Positions 16,637 to 34,581 of a DNA stretch of 64,000 nucleotides are shown here, in pieces. This DNA is from Flavobacteriaceae bacterium MAR_2010_72 (GTDB taxonomy: Bacteria; Bacteroidota; Bacteroidia; Flavobacteriales; Flavobacteriaceae): NCBI GenBank assembly GCA_003550275.1, contig QXCW01000002.1:1178001-1242000 (forward strand), in the 5' to 3' direction. The first letter of the stretch is position 1, and each line of letters begins with the position of its first letter. The translations under genes were made by a program, and so were the position numbers. Below the pieces are notes generated by a model. That model ran no database searches and was not told where the DNA came from. It worked only from the letters and a program-made list of their open reading frames with translations.

Positions 16637-16999
16637 TTATTGATTAGTTTTGACGCCCAATTTAGCTGTTTTTCGTGAGGAAATAAAAATTCTTGTTATT
16701 TCATCTGCTTCTTTTAACAAAGAATTACAAGTTTCTTTTGAAAGGAGATTTTCCTCAACAAGAAATTCAATCCAAAAAAGACTTTCGTCTACTTCTTCAA
16801 TTACAATACTGATTTTAGATATGAAACTATTTTTAGATTGCGCCAAACAAGCTGCTCGATAATTGGCAGCAACAGAAGTAGAACATCTAATTAACTGACT
16901 TTTTATATGATTACCTAAAAAAGAATTAGGGAGTTCTAAAGCAAGCTTAACACAACTATGCGCAAATATGTTAGTCCTCTTTTTTAGCTCAATAGTCAT
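16637..16999 (-). CDS. four-helix bundle protein (23S rRNA intervening-sequence / S23 family)
   Basis: A 120-residue all-helical protein of the S23/IVP family, including IFAHSCVKLALELPN, QLIRCSTSVAANYRAA (the S-x-P/S-x-A-x-N block) and EEVDESLFWIEFL. Members were first found in intervening sequences inserted in 23S rRNA genes; free-standing copies are scattered through genomes and are related to the Avd accessory protein of diversity-generating retroelements. Here there is no rRNA and no retroelement nearby. It is inserted between dapB and lepB, and its start codon lies inside a 14-bp tandem repeat. Function unknown. Confidence 0.87.
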   Translation of the reverse strand: MTIELKKRTNIFAHSCVKLALELPNSFLGNHIKSQLIRCSTSVAANYRAACLAQSKNSFISKISIVIEEVDESLFWIEFLVEENLLSKETCNSLLKEADEITRIFISSRKTAKLGVKTNQ

Positions 17000-17055
17000 T
17001 AATCAATAGTCAATAATCAATAGTCAATAATCAATAGTCAATAATCAATAGTCAT
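16990..17055. repeat. 14-bp tandem repeat, 4.7 copies, linking dapB end and the four-helix bundle gene
   Basis: The unit CAATAGTCAATAAT is repeated at 16990, 17004, 17018, 17032 and (partly) 17046; the first and last copies have CAT instead of CAA after GT. The array contains the start codon of the four-helix bundle gene at one end and the last codons plus stop of dapB at the other. Similar AT-rich TTGATTATTG words also follow the gene at about 16618-16652. Confidence 0.85.
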
Positions 17056-33359: not shown

Positions 33360-33546
33360 CCCATTGTTCCCAACTCGTTATATCCAAACCTTTAATTCGA
33401 TATAAACAAATATTTGTATCCGTTTAAAAGTAAATGTAAACTTTTTTTATAAGTTGTACTATACGTAACCTTACGTATTTTTTTTGCCTATAGGTGAGTT
33501 GAGTTTACTCTTAAAAATCTCCGATTTTAATAAGGAGCTGAACTCC

Positions 33547-33655: not shown

Positions 33656-33779
33656 CAACTTAACACAGCAACGATTAAACAAATTAACGATTCAACGCTT
33701 CAACAACCATTCACCATTCGGCTTTCCTTCGAGACTCGTCCCAAAAACTCAAATTTTTAAAAAATACAGCAAAACGGTT

Positions 33780-33810
33780 CTCGAACAATCCTCGAACAAG
33801 TCTCGAACAA
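33780..33810. repeat. three CTCGAACAA repeats at 11-bp period
   Basis: Exact copies start at 33780, 33791 and 33802. They lie 20 bp before the 10-bp array. Confidence 0.85.
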
Positions 33811-33830
33811 AACCCCCTTAAAATCACTAA

Positions 33831-33980
33831 AAGTGTGTCAATAGCGGTCAGCATAGGTCAACTAACGTCAAATGCGGTCAGTATAGGTCAGCGTAGGTCA
33901 ACTAACGTCAACCATAGTCAAATGCAGTCACTATAGGTCAGCATAGGTCAACTAACGTCAACTACCGTTAGCACATGTGA
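33831..33980. repeat. 10-bp periodic GTCA array, 15 units
   Basis: GTCA occurs at exactly every tenth base from 33837 to 33960 (13 perfect units), followed by GTTA and GTGA in phase. Unit variants include ACTAACGTCA (three times) and GCATAGGTCA (twice); a four-unit block at 33871-33910 recurs nearly intact at 33921-33960. Noncoding on inspection. Confidence 0.93.
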
Positions 33981-34020
33981 ATATAAAGGTGCAGTTATTT
34001 AAAAATCAGTAGCTTGGGCT

Positions 34021-34581
34021 TTAGCGAGTTTTCCACTTGATATTACAGCCTATGCTGGGCTTTTGATCCGTAAAAATAGGTTCTTTTGCCACTAATTGAC
34101 TAATCGCCCGCCTTAAGTCCTTACCATCAACGGGTAGGCCATTGCTAGGTCTCGAATCGTCCAATTGGCCGCGATAGACCAGTTGTAACTGTGCATCAAA
34201 CAGATAAAAATCGGGTGTGCAGGCAGCATCATAGGCTTTGGCGACCTCCTGGGTCTGGTCATACAGGTAAGGGAAGATAAACTCCTGCTCCAATGCATTC
34301 TGCTTCATGTATTCGGGACCATCTTGCGGATAATGCGCAACGTCATTACTGCTAATGGCAATACAGTTAATGCCTTTGGCCTTTACATCTTTGGCCAGTT
34401 GACTTATTTGGGCATTCACATGCTTTACAAAAGGGCAGTGGTTGCAGATGAACATGATGAGGGTGCCTTTGAGACCTTTAAGTTCGTCTAACGTGAGCAT
34501 AGTGTCACTAACTGTATCCAGTAAACTAAAATCGGGTGCCTTGGTGCCAAGGGCTAACATATTTGAAGGTGTTTGTGCCAT
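34021..34581 (-). CDS. thioredoxin-like / AhpC-TSA family protein
   Basis: A 186-residue redoxin without a signal peptide. The redox motif is CNHC (C46, C49) in MFICNHCPFVKH, followed by VNAQISQLAKDVKAKGINCIAIS. The cis-Pro region reads CTPDFYLFD. This subgroup is found next to various transporters; its partner is unknown. Its start lies 38 bp from that of the divergent csaA, so the two may share control. Downstream is the GTCA array. Confidence 0.9.
   Translation of the reverse strand: MAQTPSNMLALGTKAPDFSLLDTVSDTMLTLDELKGLKGTLIMFICNHCPFVKHVNAQISQLAKDVKAKGINCIAISSNDVAHYPQDGPEYMKQNALEQEFIFPYLYDQTQEVAKAYDAACTPDFYLFDAQLQLVYRGQLDDSRPSNGLPVDGKDLRRAISQLVAKEPIFTDQKPSIGCNIKWKTR

Follow-up and report, generated by a model that had tools for sequence, protein, structure and literature searches.

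A 10-bp-phased GTCA array in a flavobacterial genome as a probable orphan operator of a BldC-like HTH_17 protein

The array of thirteen GTCA words at 33837-33960 of the window (the whole stretch of 64,000 nucleotides analysed here, from Flavobacteriaceae bacterium MAR_2010_72) is probably an orphan copy of an operator for a BldC-like HTH_17 protein, which belongs to a module with a DUF6266 gene in related genomes. The array is preceded by a conserved leader, ends in relatives in fixed helical phase with a promoter, is better kept than its surroundings between two related species, and has a core word that covaries with the helix of the neighbouring HTH_17 protein.

The GTCA array and its leader

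A sequence-only reading had counted thirteen GTCA words at exact 10-bp spacing with zero slips (33837, 33847 ... 33957), with GTTA (33967) and GTGA (33977) continuing in phase after the thirteenth, and the count is correct. The near-duplication that it described is also present, 33867-33916 recurring at 33917-33966 with six changes, none of them inside a GTCA word, and GTCAACTAACGTCA occurs three times within the array, as it had reported. The picture of a fixed core with variable spacers, all GTCA words facing one side of the helix, likewise holds, and so does the view of the array as non-coding, with no ORF of 80 aa or more across it. We rejected a coding repeat, as ORFs of 66-70 aa enter the arrays of single copies only and are not common to the copies. 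No other 4-mer in the window, at any of the periods 5-30, has a run as long as 13; the next independent run has 7 words and lies at 17003, and the longest run was at most 3 in ten first-order Markov samples of the window (periods 7, 10, 11 and 13). The array sits between minus-strand genes, the right-hand one convergent. The window also holds a second tandem array at 16989-17054, consisting of 4.7 units of TCAATAGTCAATAA with a 7/14-bp period. The features of the locus are as follows.

33462-33482, plus strand: TACGTAACCTTACGTATTTTT block, found 5' of all three leader copies by a mismatch search of the genome
33540-33659, no strand assigned: dispersed REP-like repeat (TTCTCGATAC ... GTATCGAGAAG) separating the TACGTAACCYTACGTATTTTT-like block from the leader, by sequence comparison
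33728-33836, plus strand: leader with a 5' arm TTCGAGA, an AT-rich middle, three CGAA words 11 bp apart and AACCCCC, 29 bp lying between the last CGAA and the array, by alignment of the copies
33782-33807, plus strand: three CGAA words in 11-bp phase (33782, 33793, 33804), by pattern search
33837-33960, plus strand: thirteen GTCA words in exact 10-bp phase, by direct count
33961-33980, plus strand: two degenerate in-phase units, GTTA and GTGA, where homology to copies B and C stops
33981-34020, plus strand: site of the promoter and then DUF6266 in gene-bearing copies, neither of which is here, by locus comparison
34021-34581, minus strand: next gene, convergent, redoxin-like by eye, from the ORF list

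Exact five-unit GTCA arrays occur at three places in the 3.41-Mb genome (the window copy, C2:1536493 and C2:2257558, the latter two referred to as copies B and C), and the true start lies about 105 bp further left, where a leader of that length directly precedes the array in all three copies. When the leader (33731-33836, self-match 100%) was used as query, its positions 8-106 were matched by copy C at 96% and by copy B at 95%. Copies B and C have no REP-like repeat between block and leader; sequence similar to it splits the partial leaders at C2:1139010 and at C2:1144070 and is also found 3' of copy B. Long flanks are common to copies B and C, the end of an anti-sigma-like gene among them; these two copies are thus a segmental duplication, and they differ in unit order and number. 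The TACGTAACCTTACGTATTTTT block occurs at 12 places in the genome with up to two mismatches and at 6 with up to one (among them C2:1211462, which is window 33462), the reversed control giving 0. Two of the six two-mismatch places have the form TACCTAACCCTAGGTATTTTT, one of them about 440 bp 5' of the only DUF6266 gene of the genome. A near-palindrome, TACGTAACCYTACGTATTTTT, is found with up to one mismatch at six places, namely window 33462-33482 and C2:1137452, 1138770, 1144029, 1536345 and 2257808.

Element anatomy, promoter phase and DUF6266 in relatives

The search of related genomes for 10-bp-spaced GTCA arrays that had been proposed as a check found the five-unit array in 9 of 397 Flavobacteriaceae genomes, and the reversed pattern in 1. 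Among the 19 five-unit arrays in these nine genomes, 8 lie directly upstream of a DUF6266 gene and 11 are orphans. The gene behind the arrays has about 213 codons, and the two members scanned match PF19781 with E-values of 5e-39 and 6e-41. PF19781 is present in 70 of the 397 family genomes and in none of 14 control genomes, and it is commoner among the array genomes (8/9 array genomes vs. 62/388 others, p = 5e-6; the exception is G318). The sole DUF6266 gene of the present genome (C2:1760527-1761117) lies away from its three arrays and has neither a GTCA array nor a nearby HTH gene, but has CGAAG-type repeats and a hairpin arm.

The element consists, in this order, of three CGAA words 11 bp apart, a gap of 28-30 bp, n core words at 10 bp, and a promoter in fixed helical phase. 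We aligned 17 of the 19 five-unit arrays by their first GTCA (all except G201:C148 and G244:C12), and the distance from the last CGAA to the first GTCA is 32 bp in 12, 33 in 3 and 34 in 1 (16/17 arrays); the leader exceptions among the 17 are G129, without the third CGAA, and G261b, without the middle one. The composite pattern of three CGAA, gap and GTCA occurs at 16 places in 9/397 genomes, and its reversed control in 0/397. The gap in this pattern, which itself allowed only 28-30, is 28 in 12, 29 in 3 and 30 in 1. Window 33782-33850 matches the pattern exactly, the G244:C12 array does not match it, and an orphan composite element in G273 has two units only. A DUF6266 gene lies behind 4 of the 16 composite elements within the 3-kb locus.

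In the gene-bearing copies, a flavobacterial promoter of the form TTTG-N20-TAnnTTTG follows 3' of the array and is in turn followed by DUF6266; we take TTTG to be the -33 box. TAnnTTTG is the flavobacterial -7 consensus as published (PMC9723704). We collected 68 distinct DUF6266 genes, labelled as A-type (28) or B-type (40) from their N-terminal pattern, the 28 A stretches being the best-scoring loci plus two fetched rather than all A matches. The set is without the L202 and L264 fragments, duplicate proteins, G082:C9 and G104:C18, and L096 alone is known from the GTCA scan only. For 37 of the 40 B-type genes, upstream self-similarity is highest at lag 10, 11 or 20-22; it is significant at lag 10 against first-order Markov samples in 18/40 B-type vs. 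0/28 A-type genes; 17 of the 28 A-type genes peak at 10 or 11, and only 1 is significant at its best lag. The A-type genes at L207-L233 often follow a gene that is RteC-like by eye, and are possibly in conjugative elements; two 11-bp AAGTCCGTACC repeats lie just 5' of their start codon.

The best promoter match has a 20-bp spacer in 27 of the 40 B-type genes (17-22 allowed), and promoters beat simple shuffles one by one in only 8 of the 40. With the spacer set at 20, the distance between the -33 box and the core words is 8 modulo 10 in 17 of 18 DUF6266 genes, kinship ignored, L246 being the sole break of the rule, and in 13 of the 14 with a core run of at least 5. These 18 of 40 B genes have a core run (NNCA) of at least 3 and a scorable promoter, 8 B genes without a promoter score of 7 and 14 without a core run of 3 being left out. 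The measurement of phase starts where the longest NNCA run ends, a point 68-98 bp away from the -33 box in L080, L061, L096, L243 and L240. The distance from -7 to ATG varies between 36 and 61 while the phase from core to -33 stays fixed. Growth in 10-bp steps preserves the phase by itself, a point against the operator reading.

Constraint on the element was estimated from one species pair of a single genus, G039 and G261. Their linked array has changed at 4/114 sites vs. 25/77 fourfold sites (p = 5e-8), with 9/95 changes in the leader, 23/77 between array and ATG, and 47/426 at codon positions 1 and 2. Both genomes also have an orphan array at a matching place, and it has changed at 2/64 sites, its leader at 14/119 and its flanks at 38/180 and 17/136 (array vs. 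flanks 2/64 vs. 55/316, p = 0.002). The sequence-only reading had suggested that the array is more than a minisatellite drifting by slippage, and the retention of units one by one between related species agrees with this, as do the changes in core words, 0/76 vs. 6/102 in spacers (one-sided p = 0.033).

A sequence search of the PDB found no relative of DUF6266 itself. For the C-terminal half, a weak model (mean pLDDT 62.8, the N-terminal half being disregarded) predicts an FN3-like sandwich, and the literature searched contained no paper on the family. Neither A-type nor B-type DUF6266 matched any phage or plasmid record, and a first scan of viral contigs found 0 DUF6266, while an alignment-based second scan found two contigs. 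These look chromosomal or integrated, as Cas1/Cas2 lie beside one and a tyrosine recombinase is in the other; a mobile carrier for DUF6266 was therefore rejected. We also considered DUF6266 as the array binder, with nothing in support. On two Bacteroidales-like contigs (L278:290-2253 and L279:810-2757), the genes that come after DUF6266 encode a holin (PF05105 in L278) and, judged by eye, proteins resembling a lysozyme and a spanin lipoprotein, an arrangement like that of type 10 secretion or lysis cassettes.

A wider scan of genome contigs gave at least 119 GTCA-array stretches, with 50 Bacteroidota, 24 of these Dyadobacter, among the matches listed (phyla assigned by eye, two 'uncultured bacterium' records being counted as non-Bacteroidota). 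Outside ORFs of at least 150 codons lie 44/50 Bacteroidota loci vs. 32/69 others, again among the matches listed. The Dyadobacter arrays share the GTCA word at 10-bp phase with the element described here, but encode no DUF6266 at their loci and have an inverted partner array within 300 bp in 17 of the 24 among the matches listed. Such inverted pairs are seen at L097, L104, L136, L140, L146, L164, L169, L175 and L196, and at the two loci read (L104 and L196) the genes on either side converge by eye, and the paired arrays could fold into hairpins of great length. Bacteroidales Tobar18m-G2 (L105, L125, L177 and L202) has a dispersed element between genes, in which a conserved leader and tail of its own flank a short array, mostly of GTCATTNNTN. 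Three of the at least 119 GTCA-array loci (L108, L130 and L151) lie within 100 bp of a four-helix-bundle gene, which resembles the 23S rRNA intervening-sequence protein. We found no earlier description of the element among the literature matches listed on repeats of this kind in Bacteroidetes and Flavobacteriaceae and on HTH_17 proteins at direct repeats, subscription journals being mostly outside the search.

The HTH_17 neighbour gene and its likeness to BldC

A small HTH gene adjoins DUF6266 in most array loci, and the two members scanned match HTH_17 (PF12728, E-values of 1e-12 and 9e-12). It is present at 17/18 B genes with a significant lag-10 array vs. 4/17 without (Fisher p = 2e-5, kinship ignored), counted with extended flanks and leaving out five B genes (L259-L263) with a 300-bp 3' flank. 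Fourteen of the 17 are convergent and 3' of DUF6266 (84-168 bp away in 11 and 576-889 bp in 3), 2 lie 5' on the same strand, and 1 is at 2.45 kb. Among the genes with such an array, the HTH gene is missing only from L096; it is found without a significant array at L243, L240, L241 and L234, of which L243, L240 and L241 have short in-phase cores. A-type loci often show a weaker HTH match, 1.4-1.8 kb upstream. Further neighbours are common to few loci only (survey cut-off 90 aa). A search for such an HTH gene in the window, beside copies B and C, near the DUF6266 gene of this genome and in the orphan loci scanned found none. In G039, the HTH gene (L282:6309-6591) reads as two overlapping frames and may be broken in that strain, where the array is intact.

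When a profile of nine HTH members was compared with PDB, the best match was the BldC-DNA complex 6ama (E 0.007), followed by RacA (0.015), chance-like matches to Ataxin-1 (0.017-0.019), BldC 6amk (0.02) and RdfS (0.59). A fold search also placed 6ama best (E 0.029, TM 0.78 by target, rmsd 1.5 over 51 columns); RdfS, RacA and phage Xis also ranked near the top, and no fold or profile match reached E 0.001. The model used, made from one sequence, is poor (mean pLDDT 58.7, core 75-82). BldC, RdfS and Xis are placed together in the HTH 17 group (PMC11963761).

The core words in relatives are GTCA, GACA, CTCA, TGCA and CACA, and they covary with the helix of the neighbouring protein. Where the commonest core is GACA, the helix reads R-T-[LV]-[RK]-R in 4/4, and where it is GTCA or CTCA, S-[ST]-[LVI]-[YH]-R in 14/14 (p = 3e-4, kinship ignored, with L239, L246 and L234 left out of the table). 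In a rough tree of the HTH proteins, the GACA type appears in two separate positions. Of the three loci left out, L246 has Asn in place of a conserved Arg and a CACA core, and L239 has a TGCA core with S-C-L-Y-R. The varying helix residue aligns with BldC Lys26, and the Arg invariant in HTH alignment A4 aligns with BldC Arg30; in BldC, both contact bases and Arg30 reads a YpG step (PMC5859096). Every core retains CA, which is TG on the opposite strand, and such a step is what an Arg30-type contact of BldC reads.

BldC of Streptomyces oligomerises head to tail, as a directional filament, on direct repeats, for example at whiI and smeA-sffA, protecting tracts one helical turn apart with one molecule per turn on the longer site; the spacing at smeA-sffA is one turn (PMC5859096). 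The likeness is that of a small winged-helix protein of the HTH_17 group with direct repeats of varying number upstream of promoters. Variable-number direct repeats about one helical turn apart are found in our arrays, and a small winged-helix protein without further domains is found beside DUF6266 in relatives (with weak E-values), though not near the window copy. BldC sites, however, are described as 2-4 loosely conserved 9-bp repeats, AATTXXXX(C) (PMC5859096), whereas the arrays here consist of 5-14 exact 4-bp words at 10 bp. Unlike BldC sites, the element also has a second, 11-bp CGAA set, the fixed partner gene DUF6266 and orphan arrays, and occurs in a different phylum. The cores do not show the BldC consensus AATTXXXX(C), and we therefore class the array as resembling BldC sites in its way of working, without being one of them.

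The cooperative protein scaffold that had been suggested from the sequence gains support from the BldC-like HTH_17 gene adjoining the array-bearing gene in relatives, from which we infer that its product binds the array.

Proposed mechanism and alternative explanations

We propose that the BldC-like HTH_17 protein would line up head to tail as a filament, with one 4-bp core word per helical turn, and would control the DUF6266 promoter, by activation or repression. The complete module would comprise three CGAA, 28 bp, n core words, an in-phase promoter and DUF6266, the HTH_17 gene usually being convergent from the 3' side. The window copy, in which leader and array are kept and promoter, DUF6266 and HTH gene are absent, could then be a relic, a decoy, or a site with another role, and a protein of this type may persist elsewhere in the genome. 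Among the points against the operator reading is that DUF6266 is absent from 11/19 five-unit arrays and 12/16 composite elements.

An alternative only somewhat short of an even chance is that the three copies in this genome are dead relics without present function, left from a once regulatory array that segmental duplication and unit slippage have spread and for which no binding protein remains. The internal 50-bp duplication in the window array would fit this, as would the flanks and anti-sigma-like gene end shared by copies B and C with their differing units, and the truncated leaders elsewhere in the genome. The window copy also lacks the in-phase promoter, DUF6266 and HTH_17 gene that mark the DUF6266 upstream element: its best promoter score is 6 of 10 and out of phase, and those of copies B and C are 5 and 7. 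Elsewhere, the orphans G133:C1 and G244:C11 retain well-scoring promoters (9) 7 and 18 bp away, and G179:C15 and G261:1907768 weak ones 8 bp away, as if the genes had been lost from behind them. Against dead relics stand the thirteen exact words still in phase in the window, and the orphan array in another genus that is better kept than its flanks (p = 0.002). Decay would concern this genome only and can be compatible with the operator reading. It is improbable that the array binds some other regulator, with the HTH_17 gene a mere companion. The operators of OmpR/PhoB-type response regulators likewise consist of direct repeats spaced by about one turn, close upstream of promoters, usually two to a few of them, and this genome has five Trans_reg_C genes; none of the five is linked to an array, however, and the covariation between core word and HTH helix speaks against this reading.

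A MITE-like mobile repeat with an internal minisatellite, sometimes carrying genes, would account for the dispersed intergenic copies, many without genes, and for the few neighbours common to the loci, but we saw no terminal inverted repeats or target duplications in the three copies compared (no empty site being at hand), the copy number is low, and the array end is in phase with the promoter, which leaves this origin with a small probability. The BrickBuilt MITE of Porphyromonas gingivalis is a similarly dispersed intergenic Bacteroidota element with leader, tandem repeats and promoter activity, but has 23-bp repeats without spacers and inverted-repeat ends (PMC4596501). TAACTGA heptamer repeats also form intergenic direct-repeat arrays, in some Bacteroidetes among others, but with a 7-bp period, near start codons and with a suggested translational action (PMC4679880). 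The leader contains an inverted repeat (fold z = -1.86), and this and the persistence of orphans would suit an RNA element; yet the array folds like its shuffles (z = -0.55), the putative promoter lies 3' of the array, and Rfam gave 0 matches above gathering score in the window, so that we regard an RNA element as very unlikely. A partition centromere bound by a ParR-type adaptor, raised in the sequence-only reading, is the least credible explanation of all. The parC sites of R1 and pB171 do have 11- and 10-bp direct repeats beside a promoter, but parC is a plasmid locus with parM and parR (PMC9426499). Here the element is dispersed in several chromosomal copies, and its neighbours in relatives are DUF6266 and HTH_17, or neither, in place of adjacent parM and parR. 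The ParM profile StbA_N has 0 matches in this genome, yet also 0 in all 14 controls, and is thus no sign of absence.

Taken with the evidence from relatives, an operator for a BldC-like HTH_17 protein remains the explanation we favour. It is conceivable, though we consider it doubtful, that the elements form a self-contained Bacteroidota switch, in which the CGAA words would set the start of the filament, the array end would be locked to the promoter face, array length would tune DUF6266, and orphans would act as threshold-setting decoys. An unexplained repeat is hereby joined to a probable protein and a probable mechanism. Rows of a 4-bp word, phased with a promoter and covarying with the helix of a neighbouring protein, would lend themselves naturally to tests of filament-forming regulators from outside Streptomyces, and the module may give a first handle on DUF6266.
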